A stretch of 64,000 nucleotides of DNA from Micromonospora inositola. Lineage in GTDB: Bacteria; Actinomycetota; Actinomycetes; Mycobacteriales; Micromonosporaceae. Both the position numbers and the translations under genes were made by a program. The stretch lies in NCBI RefSeq assembly GCF_900090285.1, contig NZ_LT607754.1, positions 186,001 through 250,000 of the forward strand, in the 5' to 3' direction. Within the stretch, counting starts at the first letter, position 1. Each line of letters opens with the position of its first letter. The notes beneath the pieces were generated by a model that saw only the letters and a program-made list of their open reading frames with translations, was not told the DNA's origin and searched no databases. This document shows positions 47,365 to 56,385 of the stretch, one piece after another.

Positions 47365-48429
47365 TCAGCGCAGGCGCCGGCCCCTCGGCACCGGGTCGGT
47401 CTCGTCGTCGAACTCGCCAATGACCTCCTCCAGCAGGTCCTCCAAGGCGACGAAGCCGATCGGCCGGGTCGGGCCACCGCCGTTGCGGACCAGCGCCAGC
47501 TGGGCCTGCCGGCCCCGCATCGCCGCCACCGCCTCGGTGACCGAGGCCTGCCCGGGCAGGGTGAAGGCCGGGGTCATCAGCTCACCGGCGGTCGCCGGCC
47601 GGCCGGTGGTCACCGCCCGGACCGCCTCCCGGACGTGCACCAGGCCGCAGACCTCGCCGCCGGAGTCGAGCACGGCCAGCCGGGACCGGCCGCTGTCCCG
47701 GGAGACGTGCTCGATCCGCTCGGCGGTGTCGTCCCGGCGGACCGTGACGATCCGGTCGAACGGCTCCATCACCTGCGCCACCGTGGTGCCCTGCAGCTCC
47801 AGCATGCTGGTCAGCAGCTGGTGCTGCTCCGCGCCGAGCAGGCCGCGCTCGCGGGACTGCTGCAGCAGGATGCGCAGCTCGTCGGGGCCGTGCACCTGGG
47901 CGAGCTGGTCCTGCTGGTGCACGCCCACCAGCCGGAGGACGCCGTTGGCCAGCGCGTTGAGCGCGGAGAGCACCGGGCGGGCGACCCGGGCGAAGGCCCG
48001 GAACGGCAGCGCCAGCAGCGTCGCCGACCGCTCCGCGTCGGTGATCGCCCACGACTTCGGGGCCATCTCACCGACCACCAGGTGCAGGAAGGTCACCAGG
48101 CCGAGGGCGAAGAGCAGCGCCACCAGGTGGCTGACCGCGTCCGGCAGGCCCACCGCGTGCAGCAGCGGGCTGAGCAGGTGCTCGATCGCCGGCTCGGCCA
48201 GGGCGCCCAGGCCCAGGGTGCACAGCGTGATGCCGAGCTGGGCGCCGGCCAGCATCAGCGACAGCTCGCGGACGCCGTCCAGGGCCGCCCGGGCGGCCCG
48301 CCCGCCACCGACCGCCGCGTGCTCCAGCCGGTACCGCTTGGCGGCCACCAGGGCGAACTCGGCGGCCACGAAGAACCCGTTCAGCGCCAGCAGCACCACG
48401 GAGAAGAAGAGCGCGAGTCCCGGACTCAT
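47365..48429 (-). CDS. CNNM/CBS-domain membrane protein (hemolysin C-like)
   Basis: The 354-residue protein has a DUF21/CNNM transmembrane domain (about residues 1-180: LALFFSVVLLALNGFFVAAEFALVAAKRYRLE, LAGAQLGITLCTLGLGALAEPAIEHLL, VVGEMAPKSWAI) and two CBS motifs (about 205-335, ending FVALEDLLEEVIGEFDDE). It lacks the C-terminal CorC_HlyC domain that its neighbour has. Related proteins move Mg2+ or other divalent ions. ATG 48429 overlaps the stop of a 27-codon ORF that bridges to the upstream paralogue. Confidence 0.9.
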   Translation of the reverse strand: MSPGLALFFSVVLLALNGFFVAAEFALVAAKRYRLEHAAVGGGRAARAALDGVRELSLMLAGAQLGITLCTLGLGALAEPAIEHLLSPLLHAVGLPDAVSHLVALLFALGLVTFLHLVVGEMAPKSWAITDAERSATLLALPFRAFARVARPVLSALNALANGVLRLVGVHQQDQLAQVHGPDELRILLQQSRERGLLGAEQHQLLTSMLELQGTTVAQVMEPFDRIVTVRRDDTAERIEHVSRDSGRSRLAVLDSGGEVCGLVHVREAVRAVTTGRPATAGELMTPAFTLPGQASVTEAVAAMRGRQAQLALVRNGGGPTRPIGFVALEDLLEEVIGEFDDETDPVPRGRRLR

Positions 48430-48509
48430 GCCGCCACCTCGCTTCGCTCGGCGTCGGCATGAGCCTTGTCCGCGCCGAGTTCGATGATTCGCTCGCTCCG
48501 CTCGCTCAT
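48426..48509 (-). other. 27-codon bridging ORF between the two CNNM genes
   Basis: ATG 48509 overlaps the stop of the upstream CNNM gene (ATGA) and TGA 48428-48426 overlaps the start of the downstream one (ATGA). The peptide is charged (MSERSERIIELGADKAHADA then ERSEVAA). GAGGTGG near its end supplies the ribosome site for the next gene. The DNA contains a GAGCGAGCGGAGCGAGCGAA near-repeat and a CTCGGCG/CGCCGAG inverted repeat. It shows the same design as the mrp bridging elements but is unrelated in sequence. Confidence 0.7.
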
Positions 48510-50022: not shown

Positions 50023-50355
50023 TCAGCGGTCCGCCAGCTCGTCCGTGTCGAGGAGGGCCCGGTCGACCCGACCCGACCGGTACGCGGCCCGGCCGACCAT
50101 CTGGGCGGCGACCGGCGCGGTGGCCAGTTGGAAGGCCGCGACCAGGGCCAGCATGCCCAGGTCCGACGGCGTGCGCAGGCGCAGCGCCACCCCGGCCAGC
50201 AGGAGCAGCACGCCTAGCACCTGCGGCTTGGTGGCCGCGTGCATCCGGTCCAGCACATCCGGGAAGCGCAGCACGCCGATCCCGGCGGCCAGGCTGAGCA
50301 GGGCCCCGGCGGTCAGGCAGGCCGCACCGAGCCAGTCGGCGAGCACCCCCATCAC
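50023..50355 (-). CDS. mrpG: Mrp antiporter subunit MrpG
   Basis: The 110-residue membrane protein has three helices and the family signature GVLRFPDVLDRMHAATKPQVLGVLLLLAGVAL. It is the last gene of the Mrp operon. The GTG start at 50355 overlaps the mrpF stop. MrpG is required for Na+(K+)/H+ antiport by the hetero-oligomeric complex. Confidence 0.93.
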   Translation of the reverse strand: MMGVLADWLGAACLTAGALLSLAAGIGVLRFPDVLDRMHAATKPQVLGVLLLLAGVALRLRTPSDLGMLALVAAFQLATAPVAAQMVGRAAYRSGRVDRALLDTDELADR

Positions 50356-50615
50356 GCCGCCTCGCGGACGGCGAAGCGGACCAGGGCCACCGAGCCGACG
50401 AAGCCGAGCAGGGAGAGCACCACGAGCACGGGCAGCGTGGCGGCGTGCCGGTTGACCGCCGCCTCCGCGCCGACCGCGCCGAGCATGGTGGAGAGCAGCA
50501 GGTCGGCGCCGACGACCCGGTCCAGCAGCGACGGCCCCCGGTAGATGCGGGCCAGGGCGAGCAGCGCGGTGACCGAGAGCAGCACGGTCAGCACGACGGC
50601 GAGGAGCATGGTCAC
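50352..50615 (-). CDS. mrpF: Mrp antiporter subunit MrpF
   Basis: The 87-residue protein has three helices with the typical LARIYRGPSLLDRVVGADLLLSTMLGAVGAEA stretch; the Asp in DRVVGAD is conserved in MrpF. The GTG start at 50615 overlaps the mrpE stop (GTGA), and its stop overlaps the mrpG start. Confidence 0.93.
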   Translation of the reverse strand: MTMLLAVVLTVLLSVTALLALARIYRGPSLLDRVVGADLLLSTMLGAVGAEAAVNRHAATLPVLVVLSLLGFVGSVALVRFAVREAA

Positions 50616-51295
50616 GGATTCTTCCTCCGGTCGACGGGTTCGGTGCGCAGCTGGCGTACCTCGGCGGGCGAGCCGATCGCGCGGACGAGGCGCCGCTCGA
50701 CGGCGAGGATCCGGTCCCGGCTCGCGGTCAGGTCCTGCGGGCCGCGGACGTCGAGCACGTGCGCGTAGAGGACGCCCTGGTCCCGGTCCACCTCGAGGAT
50801 GAGGGTGCCCGGGACCAGGGAGATCACCTCGGCGGTGAGCGCCAGGTTGAGGTCGGTGCGTACCCGCAGCGGCACCGCGATGATCGCGCCGCGCGGCCGG
50901 TAGCCGGGGCGGACGGCGATCGCGGCGACGTGGAAGCTGGCGCTGACCAGCTCACCGGCGAACGTGGCCGCCAGGACGAGCAGCGCCCTAGGGCGGAGCC
51001 GGCCGCCGAAGGTGACCGGCGGCAGCGGGAAGAAGAGCAGCACCGCGGCGCCCACGACCAGCCCGCCGAGCACGTTGCCCCAGGTCACGTCCCCCCAGAG
51101 CAGCAGCCAGGTCAGCACCAGCCAGCCGAGCGCGACCGCCTCGTCCCGCCACCGGCCGCCGCGCCGGGACGCCGCCGGCTGCGGTCCGTCCGTGCCGTCG
51201 CCGCCGGGCGGCGGACCGGACGGGCCGGCACCGCGGGCCGGCGGAGGACCCGGCGGCCCGGCCCCGTCGCGACCGGACGGCCCGCCGGCCGTCAC
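50612..51295 (-). CDS. mrpE: Mrp antiporter subunit MrpE with Gly/Pro-rich N-terminal extension
   Basis: The 227-residue protein has a disordered N-terminal extension of about 50 residues, rich in Gly, Pro and Ser ([20 protein letters not shown]). The normal MrpE core follows (WLVLTWLLLWGDVTWGNVLGGLVVGAAVLLFFPLP, RPGYRPRGAIIAVPLRVRTDLNLALTAEVISLVPGTLILEVDRDQGVLYAHVLDV). The GTG 51295 start overlaps the mrpD stop; starting further in would lose this coupling, so the extension is probably real. Confidence 0.92.
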   Translation of the reverse strand: MTAGGPSGRDGAGPPGPPPARGAGPSGPPPGGDGTDGPQPAASRRGGRWRDEAVALGWLVLTWLLLWGDVTWGNVLGGLVVGAAVLLFFPLPPVTFGGRLRPRALLVLAATFAGELVSASFHVAAIAVRPGYRPRGAIIAVPLRVRTDLNLALTAEVISLVPGTLILEVDRDQGVLYAHVLDVRGPQDLTASRDRILAVERRLVRAIGSPAEVRQLRTEPVDRRKNP

Positions 51296-52800
51296 GGGAC
51301 GCCGGCCGGGAAGACGGCCCGCACGTAGGGGGTACGTTCGCGCAGGTCGGCGGCGGCGTCCGCGGTGACCTCGAAGAGCGGCCCGGCGGCGAGGGTCAGG
51401 CCCACACCGAGCGCCACCAGGGCCGCGGTCGCGCCGACCATCAGCGCCGGCAGCCGTACGGCCGGGTCGGCGGTGGCCAGCCGGGGCGACCGCCAGAACG
51501 CGATGTTCCACACCCGGGAGGCGGCGTAGAGGGTGAGCAGGCTGGTCACCGTCCCGGCCCCGACCAGCACCCCGGGCAGCACCCCGCGCGCCGCCACGCC
51601 GGCCTGGAGCAGGCCGAGCTTGCCGAGGAAGCCGGAGAGGGGCGGGATGCCGGCGAGGTTCATCGCCGGGACGAAGAAGAGCACCGCGAGCAGCGGGGCG
51701 ACCCGGGCGAGCCCGCCGAGCCGACGCAGGTCGGTACTGCCGGCGCGCTCCTCGACCAGGCCGGCGACCAGGAACAGGGTGGTCTGAATGGTGATGTGGT
51801 GCACCACGTAGAAGATCGCCCCGGAGAGGCCGGCAACGCTGCTCAGCGCCACCCCGAAGATCATGAAGCCGATGTGACTCACCAGGGTGAACGAGAAGAG
51901 GCGCTTCATGTCGGACTGGGCCACCGCGCCGAGGATGCCGACCACCATGGTCAGCCCGGCCACCACCATGAGCAGCCGGTTGGCCTGGCCGCCAGGGAAG
52001 AGCAGCGTCTCGGTGCGGATGATGGCGTACACGCCGACCTTGGTGAGCAGGCCGGCGAAGACCGCGGTGACCGGGGCCGGGGCGGTCGGGTAGCTGTCCG
52101 GCAGCCAGGCGGAGACCGGGAAGACCGCCGCCTTGATGCCGAAGGCGAGCAGCAGCATGAGCTGCAACCCCAGCCGTACGCTGTCCGGCAGGCCGTCCAG
52201 CCGCCCGGCGAGCTGGGCCATGTTGAGGGTGCCGGTGGCCGCGTACACCAGCCCCAGCGCGGCCAGGAAGATCATCGAGGAGAGGATGCTGACCACCACG
52301 TACGTCGAGCCGGTCCGGATCCGGGTCTCGGTGCTGCCCAGCGTGATCAGCACGAAGCTCGCCGCCAGCAGGATCTCGAACCCGACGAAGAGGTTGAACA
52401 GGTCCCCGGCCAGGAAGGCGTTGGTGACGCCGGCGGTCAGCACCAGGTAGGTCGGGTGGTAGATGCTCACCGGCGCGCTCTCGCTGGTCTCCCCGCGCCC
52501 CTGGCCGATCGAGTAGAGCAGCACGCAGAGCGTCACCGCCGAGGAGACCACCAGCATCAGCGCGGCGAGCTGGTCGGCGACCAGCACGATGCCCACCGGC
52601 GCCGGCCAGCCACCCACCTGCACCACGACCGGTCCGTGCCGGTACGCCTCGACCAGCAGCGTCACCGCGACCGCCAGGTTGGTGGCGAGGCCGACCACGC
52701 TGACCGACCGTTGCAGCCGGGGCCGGTTGGCCAGGATCAGCGTCAGCGCGGCGCCGAGCAGCGGCACCACCACCGGCAGCGGCACCAGCGCGGCGGTCAC
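51292..52800 (-). CDS. mrpD: Mrp antiporter subunit MrpD
   Basis: The 502-residue protein has about 14 helices and is homologous to complex I NuoN/NuoM proton-pumping subunits. Visible are AGDLFNLFVGFEILLAASFVLITLG, KAAVFPVSAWLPDSYPTAPAPVTAVFAGLLTKVGVYAIIR with the essential Lys, and SDMKRLFSFTLVSHIGFM. The GTG 52800 start overlaps the stop of a 20-codon bridging ORF inserted between mrpC and mrpD. Confidence 0.95.
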   Translation of the reverse strand: MTAALVPLPVVVPLLGAALTLILANRPRLQRSVSVVGLATNLAVAVTLLVEAYRHGPVVVQVGGWPAPVGIVLVADQLAALMLVVSSAVTLCVLLYSIGQGRGETSESAPVSIYHPTYLVLTAGVTNAFLAGDLFNLFVGFEILLAASFVLITLGSTETRIRTGSTYVVVSILSSMIFLAALGLVYAATGTLNMAQLAGRLDGLPDSVRLGLQLMLLLAFGIKAAVFPVSAWLPDSYPTAPAPVTAVFAGLLTKVGVYAIIRTETLLFPGGQANRLLMVVAGLTMVVGILGAVAQSDMKRLFSFTLVSHIGFMIFGVALSSVAGLSGAIFYVVHHITIQTTLFLVAGLVEERAGSTDLRRLGGLARVAPLLAVLFFVPAMNLAGIPPLSGFLGKLGLLQAGVAARGVLPGVLVGAGTVTSLLTLYAASRVWNIAFWRSPRLATADPAVRLPALMVGATAALVALGVGLTLAAGPLFEVTADAAADLRERTPYVRAVFPAGVP

Positions 52801-52859
52801 TCGGCCGTCTCCGTTCGCGACTGCGGGGCTCGCAGGACCGGCTCACTCCCCGCGCTCAC
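52797..52859 (-). repeat. Bridging element 2 (mrpC/mrpD junction), 20-codon ORF
   Basis: GTG 52859 overlaps the mrpC stop (GTGA), and TGA 52799-52797 overlaps the mrpD GTG (GTGA). The distance between the two starts is 59 bp. The encoded peptide MSAGSEPVLRAPQSRTETAE is nearly that of element 1, and GGAG eight bases before mrpD gives it a ribosome site. CTGCG-GGGCT-CGCAG within it can fold as a small hairpin. It looks like the same mobile or duplicated unit as at 53335-53397. Confidence 0.8.
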
Positions 52860-53338
52860 CGCTGGTCCCGCCGTCGGCGCAGCCGGCGCAAGGCGGGCCC
52901 CGGGTCCACCTGCTCCGGGTCGTTGTCCGGGCCCTCGCCGCCGAGGTCCGCGGTGGACACCTCGTTGCGCTCGGCGAGCCGGACGATCTGCCGGTCCTCC
53001 AGGTCGTCCTGCACCTCGTCGTCGCCGCTGAGATACCAGCTCCGGTACGCGACCGCGAGCAGGAACGCGGTCAGCCCGAAGGTGATCACCACGGCGGTGA
53101 GCACCATGGCCTGGGGCAGCGCGTCGCTCAACTCCCCGGTCGGCGCGGTGCCCACCACCGGGGCGGCCCCCGACCGGCCGCCGAGCAGGATCAGCAGGTT
53201 CACCCCGTTGCCGAGCAGGATGACGCCGAGCAGGATCCGGCTCAGGCTGCGCTCCAGCAGCAGGATGACGCCGGTGGCCACCAGCACCCCGACGGCGATC
53301 ACCAGCACCAGGGTGGGTCCCGCCCCGCCCGCGCTCAC
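52856..53338 (-). CDS. mrpC: Mrp antiporter subunit MrpC
   Basis: The 160-residue protein is a NuoK-like three-helix subunit: LVLVIAVGVLVATGVILLLERSLSRILLGVILLGNGVNLLILLGG, then PQAMVLTAVVITFGLTAFLLAVAYR. A hydrophilic tail of about 50 residues follows. The GTG 53338 start overlaps the stop of bridging element 1, and its own stop overlaps the start of element 2, so it is flanked by elements on both sides. Confidence 0.94.
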   Translation of the reverse strand: MSAGGAGPTLVLVIAVGVLVATGVILLLERSLSRILLGVILLGNGVNLLILLGGRSGAAPVVGTAPTGELSDALPQAMVLTAVVITFGLTAFLLAVAYRSWYLSGDDEVQDDLEDRQIVRLAERNEVSTADLGGEGPDNDPEQVDPGPALRRLRRRRDQR

Positions 53339-53397
53339 CGCGCCACCTCTGTTCGCGACTGCGGGGCTCGCAGAACCGGCTCACTCCTCGCACTCAC
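53335..53397 (-). repeat. Bridging element 1 (mrpA/mrpC junction), 20-codon ORF
   Basis: GTG 53397 overlaps the mrpA stop (GTGA), and TGA 53337-53335 overlaps the mrpC GTG (GTGA), again 59 bp from start to start. The peptide is MSARSEPVLRAPQSRTEVAR. The DNA matches element 2 at about 51 of 60 positions, with the central stretch almost identical. AGAGGTGG near the end serves mrpC as a ribosome site. Its edges are marked by a duplicated GTGA. Confidence 0.8.
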
Positions 53398-56228
53398 GTC
53401 CGATCCCCCTCCCGGTCGACCGCCAGGCCCCCCTCCGGGCCGCCGCTCGCTTCGATGTGCCGGTCCACCTCGGCGCCGAGGCTGCGCAGGATGTCCAGCA
53501 TCAGCCCGACCACGATCAGGTAGACGCCCACGTCGAAGAAGAGCGACGTGACCAGGTAGCAGTGACCGACGGCGGGCAGCCAGAGGTCGACCTTCACGCT
53601 CTCCAGCACGGATCCGGTGCGGAGCAGCCCGACCGCGCCGGTGCCGACGGAGACGGCCAGCCCGGCGCCGAGCACGGTCCCGGCCCCCACCGGCGCCGCC
53701 TCGGCCAGCTCGTACCGGCCGCCGGCCAGGTAGCGGACCGCGAGGGCGAGGCCGGCCACCAGGCCACCGGCGAAGCCGCCGCCGGGGGCGTTGTGCCCGG
53801 AGAAGAGCAGGAAGAGGGAGAAGAGCAACACGGTGTGGAAGATCAGCCGGGTGACCACCTCGAAGACGATCGACCGTCGCCGCTCGCGCAGGGTCGCCCC
53901 GCCGCGCAGCCACACCGGCCGCCGGTCCCGTCGGGGCGCGGACGGCGCGGGGCGGCGCGGCCGCGGCCCGGTGCGGGACCGTTCGAAGATCAGGCTGGCC
54001 ACCCCGGTCGCGGCCACCACCAGCACGGAGATCTCGCCCATGGTGTCCCAGGCACGGATGTCGACCAGGGCCACGTTGACCACGTTGCGGCCGTAGCCCT
54101 GGGCGACCGCCAGGTCGGGGTAGGCGAGCGAGATCGACGGCGTCCGCCGGGCGCCGGCCGCCGCCAGCGCGAGGCCGGCCAGCACCAGCCCGGCCGCCAC
54201 CCCGATCCCCCGCCGCAGCCAGCGACTGCGACGCAAGGGTCGGGCCGAGAAGCGGTCCGGCAGGCGCCGCAGCACCAGCACGAAGAGCACGATGGTGGCG
54301 GTCTCGACCAGGAACTGGGTGAGCGCCAGATCGGGCGCGCCGTAGAGGACGAACATCATCGCGGTGCCGTAGCCGGTAACCCCGACCAGCAGCATCGCGG
54401 TGAGCCGGCGGCGGGCGCCGACGGCGAGCACCGCCGCCACCGCGATGATCAGGCCGACCACGAGCTGGGCGGGGGTGTCCCAGAGCGCGATCCGCTCCCG
54501 CCAGGGGCGGGCGGCCAGCATCGCCGCGCCGGGCACCAGCACCAGCGCGAGCAGGATGGCGCCGAGGTACTGCGGCAGCGAGCCGCGCTGGGTGGCGCCG
54601 GTGACCTCGATGGCGAACCGGTCGAACCGGTGGGTCACCCACTCGTAGCCCTGGTTGCCGCCGACCGGGACGTGCAGCCGGCCGAGCGCGGGGGCGAGCG
54701 GGCCGCGTACCAGGTGCAGCGCGACGCCGCCGGCGACCGCGACCGCGGAGAGCCCCAGCGCCAGGTTCGGCCCGGGCCAGAGCGCGAGGTGCGCCTCCCC
54801 CGGGCCGAAGAGCTCGGCGTACGGGTGGAACAGGCCGCCCAGCCAGCCGGCGGCGGGACCGGCGGCCAGCCCGGCGGCGGCGAGCAGGGCCGGTGGCGCC
54901 AGCATCGCGGCCGGGGCGGCGGCCAGTTCGGTGGGCGGCGTGCCGGGGCGGCTGGCGAAGGCGCCCCAGAGGAAGCGGATGCTGTACGCGACGGTGAGGG
55001 CGGTGCCGCCGACCAGCACGGCGAGCACGAGCGGCCGGTCGGTGAAGGCGGCGAGGACCGCCTCCTTCGCGACGAAGCCGAACAGCGGCGGCAGCCCGGC
55101 CATCGACGCGGCGGCGAGCCCGGCGACCACCGCCAGCAGCGGCGCGGTACGCCCGACCCCGGAGAGCTCGCGCAGGTCACGGCTGCCGGCACAGTGGTCG
55201 AGGAGGCCCACGACGAGGAACAGGGCCGCCTTGAACAGCGCGTGCGCCAGCAGCATCGCCGTGCCGGCCAGCGCGGCCTTCGGCGTGCCCGCGCCGATCA
55301 CCACGGTCAGCAGGCCGAGCTGGCTGACCGTCCCGTACGCCAGCAGCAGCTTCAGGTCGGTCTGCCGCAGCGCCGCCCAGCCCCCGGCGACCAGGGTGAC
55401 CAGCCCGGCGACCACGGTGACCGGACGCCACGGGCCGGCGATCGCGAGCACCGGGGCGAGCAGCCCGACCAGGTAGACCCCGGCCTTCACCATCGCCGCC
55501 GCGTGCAGGTACGCGCTGACCGGCGTCGGCGCGGCCATCGCCACCGGCAGCCAGGAGCTGAACGGGAAGACGGCGGACTTGGCCAGCGCCCCGGTCAGGA
55601 TCAGCAGCACCGCCACGGCGAGGTACCCGCCACCGGGCAGCGGCGCGGCGGTGATCGCCGACCAGCGGTAGCCGCCGGCGTGCCGGCCGAGCAGGAGGAA
55701 GCCGACCAGCATGGCCAGCCCGCCGAGGGTGGTCACGGTCAGCGCCTGGGCGGCCGCCCACCGGCTGGACCGTCGCTCGGTGCTGTGCCCGATCAGCAGG
55801 TAGGAGAAGACCGTGGTCAGCTCCCAGAAGACGTAGAGGAGCAGCAGGTCGTCGGCGACCACCAGGCCGAGCATCGCCCCGGCGAAGGCGACCAGCACGG
55901 CCGCGAACCGGGCCAGCCCCGCCGAGCCGGGGTGGAAGTAGTGGGCGGAGTAGACCAGCACCAGCGCGCCGATGCCGCCGACCAGCAGCACCATCAGCCA
56001 GGACAGGGTGGTGACCCGCAGCGCGAGGTCGAGCCGGAGTTGGCCGATCCACGGGTACGTCTCGACGACCGCGCCGCCGTCGCGGACCGCCGGGGTGTGG
56101 GCGATGGCCCAGCCGAACGCGGCGGCCGGCGCGAGGGCGAGCGGGTAGCAGGCGCGCGGACCCCACCAGCGGACCAGCAGCGGCGCGAGCAGGGCCGCCA
56201 CCAGGTGCAGGATCAGCAGTACGAGCAC
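53394..56228 (-). CDS. mrpA: Mrp antiporter subunit MrpA fused to MrpB
   Basis: The protein of about 944 residues carries the NuoL-like MrpA part (HYFHPGSAGLARFAAVLVAFAGAMLGLVVADDLLLLYVFWELTTVFSYLLIGH, KSAVFPFSSWLPVAMAAPTPVSAYLHAAAMVKAGVYLV). The central MrpA-specific helices follow (LTQFLVETATIVLFVLVLRRLP). The C-terminal 170 residues are the MrpB domain (RLIFHTVLLFSLFLLFSGHNAPGGGFAGGLVAGLALAVRYL). A separate mrpB is therefore absent. Start GTG 56228 with GGAG upstream. It is the first gene of mrpACDEFG, a Na+/H+ antiporter for salt and pH tolerance. Confidence 0.94.
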   Translation of the reverse strand: MLVLLILHLVAALLAPLLVRWWGPRACYPLALAPAAAFGWAIAHTPAVRDGGAVVETYPWIGQLRLDLALRVTTLSWLMVLLVGGIGALVLVYSAHYFHPGSAGLARFAAVLVAFAGAMLGLVVADDLLLLYVFWELTTVFSYLLIGHSTERRSSRWAAAQALTVTTLGGLAMLVGFLLLGRHAGGYRWSAITAAPLPGGGYLAVAVLLILTGALAKSAVFPFSSWLPVAMAAPTPVSAYLHAAAMVKAGVYLVGLLAPVLAIAGPWRPVTVVAGLVTLVAGGWAALRQTDLKLLLAYGTVSQLGLLTVVIGAGTPKAALAGTAMLLAHALFKAALFLVVGLLDHCAGSRDLRELSGVGRTAPLLAVVAGLAAASMAGLPPLFGFVAKEAVLAAFTDRPLVLAVLVGGTALTVAYSIRFLWGAFASRPGTPPTELAAAPAAMLAPPALLAAAGLAAGPAAGWLGGLFHPYAELFGPGEAHLALWPGPNLALGLSAVAVAGGVALHLVRGPLAPALGRLHVPVGGNQGYEWVTHRFDRFAIEVTGATQRGSLPQYLGAILLALVLVPGAAMLAARPWRERIALWDTPAQLVVGLIIAVAAVLAVGARRRLTAMLLVGVTGYGTAMMFVLYGAPDLALTQFLVETATIVLFVLVLRRLPDRFSARPLRRSRWLRRGIGVAAGLVLAGLALAAAGARRTPSISLAYPDLAVAQGYGRNVVNVALVDIRAWDTMGEISVLVVAATGVASLIFERSRTGPRPRRPAPSAPRRDRRPVWLRGGATLRERRRSIVFEVVTRLIFHTVLLFSLFLLFSGHNAPGGGFAGGLVAGLALAVRYLAGGRYELAEAAPVGAGTVLGAGLAVSVGTGAVGLLRTGSVLESVKVDLWLPAVGHCYLVTSLFFDVGVYLIVVGLMLDILRSLGAEVDRHIEASGGPEGGLAVDREGDRT

Positions 56229-56385
56229 ACACGCTCCAGGTCGAGTGGGACCGCACGCCGGGACGGGCACGCTCCGGCCACGACCGATCAGACGTCAGAT
56301 CGCCGACCCAGGGGCGGGTTTGCCGAAAACGGTCCGACCGGGACCGGACCGGATCAGCGACGCGGTACGGCGTACCGGATCCGGG

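Follow-up and report, generated by a model that had tools for sequence, protein, structure and literature searches.

What are the two short, similar sequences that join consecutive genes of the mrp operon in Micromonospora inositola, and how did they come to lie exactly between a stop codon and a start codon? The operon lies on the minus strand of a 64,000-nucleotide stretch of the genome (contig NZ_LT607754.1, positions 186,001 to 250,000), here called the window, and Pfam matches identify its products as subunits of an Mrp sodium/proton antiporter, the first gene encoding a fused MrpA–MrpB. Two units with a 59-bp period occupy the consecutive junctions mrpAB/mrpC (E1) and mrpC/mrpD (E2). An earlier, sequence-only reading had described each as a 59-bp element with a 20-codon open reading frame (ORF) that joins the upstream stop to the downstream start through GTGA, a description that we confirmed base by base. 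The bridging ORFs read VSARSEPVLRAPQSRTEVAR (E1) and VSAGSEPVLRAPQSRTETAE (E2), each of 20 codons plus a stop, with the common core SEPVLRAPQSRTE. Their parts, in window coordinates, are as follows.

53335–53397, minus strand: E1 with both GTGA ends and its 20-codon bridging ORF, mrpAB/mrpC junction (sequence and genome matches)
53394–53397, minus strand: left GTGA of E1, the mrpAB stop and start of the E1 mini-ORF
53339–53352, minus strand: variable 3′ tail of E1, with the Shine–Dalgarno (SD)-like AGAGGTGG, the probable mrpC ribosome site (sequence and tail statistics)
53335–53338, minus strand: right GTGA of E1, the mini-ORF stop and mrpC start
52797–52859, minus strand: E2 with both GTGA ends and its 20-codon bridging ORF, mrpC/mrpD junction (sequence and genome matches)
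52856–52859, minus strand: left GTGA of E2, the mrpC stop and start of the E2 mini-ORF
52801–52814, minus strand: variable 3′ tail of E2, with the SD-like GGAGA, the probable mrpD ribosome site (sequence and tail statistics)
52797–52800, minus strand: right GTGA of E2, the mini-ORF stop and mrpD start

E1 and E2 very probably belong to a family of tiny non-autonomous mobile units that is found in the Micromonosporaceae and is similar in kind to the mycobacterial interspersed repetitive units (MIRUs); insertion of such a unit would be translationally quiet. We propose that a unit inserts beside a GTGA start codon, usually one that overlaps an upstream stop. The upstream gene would then end in the left GTGA, where a mini-ORF would start from the old ribosome site. 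This mini-ORF would run to the right NTGA, at which the downstream gene would begin from a second ribosome site. A 14-nt duplicate of the target's own site and start supplies this second pair in some insertions; in E1, E2 and others the tail seems to have been brought along by the unit. Ribosomes finishing the upstream gene could restart on the mini-ORF, which would be translated, and then on the next gene. Because a 45-nt core and a 14-nt tail make 59 bp (2 mod 3) and keep both 4-bp overlaps, insertion should be near-neutral for translation of both genes. Preserved coupling would be the reason that these insertions survive; at other positions, most would damage a gene and disappear. Mobilization would presumably depend on an enzyme acting in trans.

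A genome search revealed a dispersed repeat family, as the sequence-only reading had suspected, that extends well beyond the mrp operon. In the 6.7-Mb M. inositola genome, a 71-base query returned at least 50 matches at E ≤ 10, including 47 with E < 1e-4 (a lower bound, with 63 first-look candidates and 40 scored), and a profile search of the matched loci resolved 52 copies, which we grouped into 39 arrays; 8 of the arrays are tandem. Chance, or a local duplication of the mrp region, is ruled out by this genome-wide spread. Among 100 arrays, 83 were usable; the other 17 had no left TGA or right NTGA, contained an N or lay near a sequence end. Units in the usable arrays are 54–69 bp long, and 30 of the 83 arrays hold 2–5 units. 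Each unit has a conserved 5′ part, GTGAGCGCGAGGAGTGAGC, and a conserved middle, GCGAGCCCCGCAGTCGCGAAC, separated by about 3 variable bases; its final 15 or so bases are variable and resemble a ribosome site. About 45 bp of each unit form the conserved core, and the SD-bearing tail behind it varies in sequence up to its closing NTGA. The copies fall into at least three subfamilies, one of which is shorter by 5 nt.

The family is a feature of the Micromonosporaceae. In collections with one genome per species, a query with the E1 sequence matched 37 of 61 genomes, namely all 37 Micromonospora (M. inositola and 36 congeners), and none of the 24 genomes from other families. With stricter filters, a model built from sequence alone matched 125 of 250 Micromonosporaceae genomes, in 26 of 44 genera. 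A 59-bp model (R1) matched 70 of 397 genomes in an order-wide sample, in which the matches outside the Micromonosporaceae were five single weak ones (E 2e-4 to 8e-4, the best 2.1e-4). Phage records contained no match to the unit, viral contigs contained no exact match of two unit motifs, and one plasmid record matched, at two places; on these results we rejected a phage or plasmid vector. The M. terminaliae record NZ_CP045310.1 (2501–7563; our locus L367), called plasmid pLB1, lists one acyltransferase accession twice. The 59-bp unit matches this record at two places, one of which adjoins one of the two acyltransferase gene copies.

Copies of the family are tied to coupled stop/start junctions, as had been predicted from E1 and E2. 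The left TGA is in frame with a coding upstream gene in 24 of the 39 M. inositola arrays, with frames called from codon-position GC content and not from annotation. An in-frame NTGA start follows within 45 nt of the core in 35 of 39, and in 32 of these it stands at the unit's expected right end: in all 24 arrays with an in-frame upstream stop and in 8 further arrays without one. In the arrays at L016, L036 and L041 (L numbers are our handles for loci) the start lies beyond that end. Thirty-eight of the 39 arrays are co-directional with the downstream gene. As a background, a crude gene caller run on an 864-kb sample from the M. inositola genome placed 93 of 728 neighbouring gene pairs in 4-bp overlap. 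Annotation gives the same picture in M. terminaliae (NZ_CP045310), where one coding sequence stops in the left GTGA and the next starts in the right GTGA, 59 bp apart. The host junctions are functionally unrelated and include those of the Mrp antiporter, pdxS/pdxT, an ABC-2 transporter and an aminotransferase/aldehyde dehydrogenase pair.

The remaining junctions of the mrp operon show what a site without a unit looks like. Coordinates and first codons confirmed the plain GTGA overlaps that had been noted at mrpD/E, E/F and F/G.

53394–56270, minus strand: mrpAB, fused MrpA–MrpB, upstream of E1 (Pfam Proton_antipo_M, MbhD, MbhE, MnhB)
52856–53338, minus strand: mrpC, between E1 and E2 (Pfam Oxidored_q2)
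51292–52800, minus strand: mrpD, downstream of E2 (Pfam Proton_antipo_M)
50023–51295, minus strand: mrpE, mrpF and mrpG (Pfam), with plain GTGA overlaps between them
51292–51295, 50612–50615 and 50352–50355, minus strand: plain GTGA overlaps at mrpD/E, E/F and F/G (coordinates and first codons)

Orthologous junctions are commonly plain NTGA overlaps, in line with the suggestion that the plain overlap is the empty state. Among 80 named mrp loci, the mrpAB/C junction was filled in 10 (one unit in nine loci, four units in L110), a plain overlap in 62 and otherwise built in 8; at mrpC/D the corresponding counts were 6, 44 and 30. The mrpF/G junction was filled in 4, plain in 59, other in 14 and missing in 3, and no unit was found at mrpD/E (56 plain, 21 other, 3 missing) or mrpE/F (75 plain, 2 other, 3 missing). 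On a tree of MrpD, in which the L131 row has an unreliable long branch, the mrpAB/C state requires at least nine changes, six of them forced by well-supported branches. M. inositola and M. sicca (L079) are sisters on this tree and have both E1 and E2 in common; the adjoining M. veneta (L089) is empty at both sites. At pdxS/pdxT (Pfam names), L188, with a 98% identical PdxT, is empty and M. inositola is filled. Counting by eye in 110–130 nt of sequence, we found no unit in 28 of 30 loci at the ABC-transporter junction of L008 (the two with a unit being M. inositola and L175), a unit in 6 of 30 loci at the L002 junction, M. inositola included, with a partial unit in two more, and a unit in 3 of 30 loci at the L017 junction. 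Some junctions occupied in M. inositola carry diverged or tandem units in other genomes (L175 at the ABC-transporter junction, L196 and L209 at pdxS/pdxT), which perhaps reflects recurrent use of the same target sites.

Unit length determines what becomes of the junction: both 4-bp overlaps survive at 2 mod 3, an in-frame extension results at 0 mod 3 and the link is broken at 1 mod 3. Across the 140 units of the 83 usable arrays, 110 are 2 mod 3, 27 are 0 mod 3 and 3 are 1 mod 3. The proposal that each element ends in its own ribosome site also holds for the family at large, since 94% of 63 right tails contain an SD-like match (at least 4 nt of the anti-SD complement). Such a match is found in 78% of the 63 left flanks, in 77% of 71 called starts with a 4-bp overlap and in 39% of 2,812 forward-strand GTGA sites.

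If the target is duplicated on insertion, the sequence preceding the left GTGA is expected to recur ahead of a right GTGA. At 29 M. inositola arrays, the mean was 4.86 matches in 10 nt compared with 4.08 after permutation (p 4e-4). In a second test, which scored the left flank against all tails of its array, 63 of the 83 usable arrays were kept after near-identical upstream contexts had been dropped; the suffix alignment score was 3.97 versus 2.38, with p 5e-5, the floor of 20,000 shuffles. In 4 of these 63 independent arrays (L008, L017, L045 and L070), an exact 10 nt plus GTGA is duplicated, a 14-nt identity that occurred in 1 of 3,906 cross-pairs. The duplicated 14 nt are the ribosome site and GTGA, and L182, an ortholog of L008 without a unit, has the L008 14-mer once. 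At pdxS/pdxT, 9 nt are common to flank and tail. The sequence-only reading had envisaged insertion with duplication of GTGA and an added length of 2 mod 3. The length stands in 110 of 140 units; the duplication needs amending, as some arrays duplicate 14 bp and not GTGA alone.

Several observations weigh against quiet insertion by a mobile unit, or against its generality. Most arrays, including E1 and E2, lack the 14-nt duplication; at E1 and E2 flank and tail have only GTGA in common, and the tail of E1 is similar to those of other copies. Either such arrays have lost older duplications to overwriting, or the right boundary can lie at any position from the core's end to the GTGA. The first, cruder duplication test was weak at 44 other arrays (4.34 versus 4.01, p 0.03). 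In the M. saelicesensis clade, empty mrpAB/C junctions are mostly ATGA and filled ones have GTGA on both sides, so simple insertion with duplication does not explain these alleles. The mrpAB/C state is weakly clustered on the MrpD tree: shuffled states averaged 10.5 changes, and 45 of 500 shuffles were as low as the observed count. The excess of 2 mod 3 owes most to the 59-bp founder length; among lengths other than 59, in 21 independent arrays, the distinct lengths number 7, 15 and 1 in classes 2, 0 and 1 mod 3. The 27 units of length 0 mod 3 would extend the downstream protein rather than bridge to it, and the NTGA start at the right end is missing in 7 of the 39 arrays. Finally, a scan of the M. 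inositola genome for the 5′ motif found no mobilizing gene linked to a unit and no larger element with the unit's 5′ end. Of its 45 sites, 42 were known copies and 3 were not, a reversed-pattern control gave 4, and the motif does not cover the GTGCAGCG subfamily.

How the units spread admits several accounts. They may have an insertion mechanism of their own that recognizes translation-initiation regions, inserting after a GTGA start and duplicating the 14 nt of ribosome site and start, an idea that we advance tentatively. Each such insertion would deliver a bridging ORF together with a spare copy of the host gene's initiation site, and a family of about 80 bp with similar ends in the window (described below) would make this a general way of colonizing operons in actinomycetes. 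Of comparable, modest plausibility is spread without a dedicated transposase, through horizontal transfer combined with template switching or recombination (gene conversion, TGA microhomology) from one SD-start region to another. This would suit the varying match between tail and target (from 4 nt at E1 and E2 through 9 nt at pdxS/pdxT to 14 nt in four arrays), the lack of a larger element in the M. inositola scan and the GTGA that replaces the ATGA of close relatives at some mrp junctions. Such a process fits poorly with base-precise insertion at unrelated sites that share no longer homology, and the four exact 14-nt duplications look like the product of transposition. Precise insertion next to a tetranucleotide resembles the mechanism of Y1 (HUH) transposases, which could have moved the units as single strands in the manner of REP/RAYT or IS200/IS605 elements, and the M. 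inositola genome has three Y1_Tnp matches. Y1_Tnp, however, was found in only 12 of the 37 Micromonospora genomes (M. inositola included), yet the repeat is in all 37; moreover, five units fold no better than their shuffles (z −1.2 to 0.5). We regard this route as quite improbable. A structured RNA was likewise rejected on the absence of excess folding in the five units and of any Rfam match (none at E ≤ 1 for window positions 52600–53600).

Two further explanations assign the units a function. The units could have been domesticated for regulation, with the bridging ORF and both ribosome sites tuning the ratio of upstream to downstream protein and copy number adjusting the setting. In favour of this account, the number of units at this one kind of junction ranges from 1 to 5, and precedents come from M. 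tuberculosis: according to the available text of the reports, higher mRNA was correlated with a longer repeat region upstream of Mtb-fpg1 (PMC2734929), and senX3-independent expression of regX3 is attributed to MIRUs (PMC4213456). But occupancy differs among close relatives at the same junction, and the functional diversity of the host junctions is more like neutral insertion. The role in translation or operon tuning raised by the sequence-only reading gained no direct support beyond the fact that coupling is kept intact, and we consider regulatory use unlikely. That the 20-residue peptide is a selected product seems highly improbable. The core does read VSARSEP[VG]LRAPQSRT in 38 of 62 units. 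Variation shows no preference for third codon positions, with 66, 54 and 54 minor alleles at positions 1, 2 and 3 in 62 aligned units (about three of which, from another subfamily, are misaligned), and therefore gives no evidence for peptide selection; the shorter subfamilies also change both frame and peptide. Insertion of a mobile, translationally quiet unit remains our preferred explanation of E1 and E2.

The closest likeness, one that the sequence-only reading had not named, is to MIRUs (Supply et al. 1997), which underlie tuberculosis strain typing. To our knowledge, how MIRUs move and whether they matter to their genes are unsettled. In the available text of a 2025 review (PMC12548453), MIRUs are mobile repeats whose insertion at a start codon couples an internal ORF to the gene at −4 nt, likely with minimal effect on that gene's expression. 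Accessible parts of other papers count 41 places with units of 40–100 bp in M. tuberculosis H37Rv (PMC2734929), place 77- and 53-bp MIRUs between senX3 and regX3, there confined to M. leprae and the M. tuberculosis complex (PMC4213456), and hypothesize that polycistronic operon transcripts include the MIRU loci (PMC3635867). Measured against these partial descriptions, the family here shares the size class (54–69 bp), the roughly 40 places (39 arrays), head-to-tail arrays of varying copy number (8 of 39 arrays in M. inositola, 30 of the 83 usable ones) and apparent mobility, seen in empty and filled orthologous sites. It also shares insertion at start codons (32 of 39) with an internal ORF coupled at −4 nt (both overlaps in 24 of 39), with the difference that not every unit is in bridging phase. 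We call the family MIRU-like, and not MIRU, because the architecture is likened through descriptions of MIRUs and not through sequence homology. Unlike MIRUs, it was found here in the Micromonosporaceae, with the five weak single matches outside them in the order-wide sample, and some of its arrays duplicate a 14-nt ribosome site and start, which the available portions of the MIRU literature do not mention. The 14-nt duplication of ribosome site and GTGA flanking 4 of 63 independent arrays is new here.

Other small repeats are less alike. REP/RAYT palindromic repeats are small, dispersed, non-autonomous repeats of bacterial chromosomes, as are the units here; by contrast, the units sit at start codons, a Y1 transposase was found in only 12 of 37 Micromonospora genomes and the five units that were folded give no sign of the hairpin-forming imperfect palindrome of REP sequences. 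Nor does E1, inspected by eye, have the terminal inverted repeats of miniature inverted-repeat transposable elements (MITEs): it starts GTGAGTGCGAGG, and the reverse complement of its end starts TCACCGCGCCAC. The enterobacterial repeat units RU-1 to RU-3 (103–168 bp, MITE-like, intergenic or fused into genes) resemble the family as small mobile sequences that carry ORFs, but the available text does not describe bridging of stop/start overlaps for them (PMC2759123). We found no paper containing the core 17-mers of the family in a search whose scope took in few subscription journals, and no publication on it was evident among the matches listed in title searches. The many pairs of empty and filled sites across Micromonospora species make the family a tractable system for studying both the insertion mechanism and the effect on coupled translation, and duplication of the ribosome site offers a concrete account of how such insertions survive inside operons.

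Bridging sequences of other kinds occur at similar junctions. In the 864-kb sample, ATGA/GTGA junctions with a gap of 4–150 nt were bridged in 15 of 40 cases, compared with 24 of 126 for a CTGA pseudo-control; such bridges are not clearly more frequent than in the pseudo-control, and we do not claim a general enrichment of repeat-free bridging mini-ORFs, as part of this excess comes from the repeat families themselves. Gaps without the repeat in the mrp operon hold other mini-ORFs that also bridge; these come in many lengths of the 2 mod 3 class and preserve the NTGA overlap at either end. Where a start overlaps the stop, bridges were perfect in 4 of 4 gaps at mrpAB/C (L078, L085, L122 and L125), 17 of 25 at mrpC/D and 2 of 2 at mrpF/G, among loci that share ancestry. 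The 17 mrpC/D loci are L086, L099, L105, L109, L114–L116, L120, L122, L125, L132, L134, L139, L142, L146, L148 and L154; the other 8 gaps are also 2 mod 3, with a more upstream start chosen there by the script. Left out of these counts (mrpAB/C, mrpC/D and mrpF/G, respectively) were 2, 3 and 9 gaps with a CTGA stop and 2, 2 and 3 in which no start was found. At mrpAB/C, the bridging ORFs of L126 and L122 (26 and 29 nt, 2 mod 3) look like internally deleted units.

The window also holds a second bridging repeat, with an 80-bp period (ATGAGCGAGCGGAGCGAGCGAATC...GAGCGAAGCGAGGTGGCGGCATGA), at 48426–48509 on the minus strand between two CNNM/CBS genes (Pfam). It has ten matches in the M. inositola genome at E < 1e-4, the window copy included, two of which stand in tandem at 367246 and 367326, and its ends resemble those of the 59-bp family.

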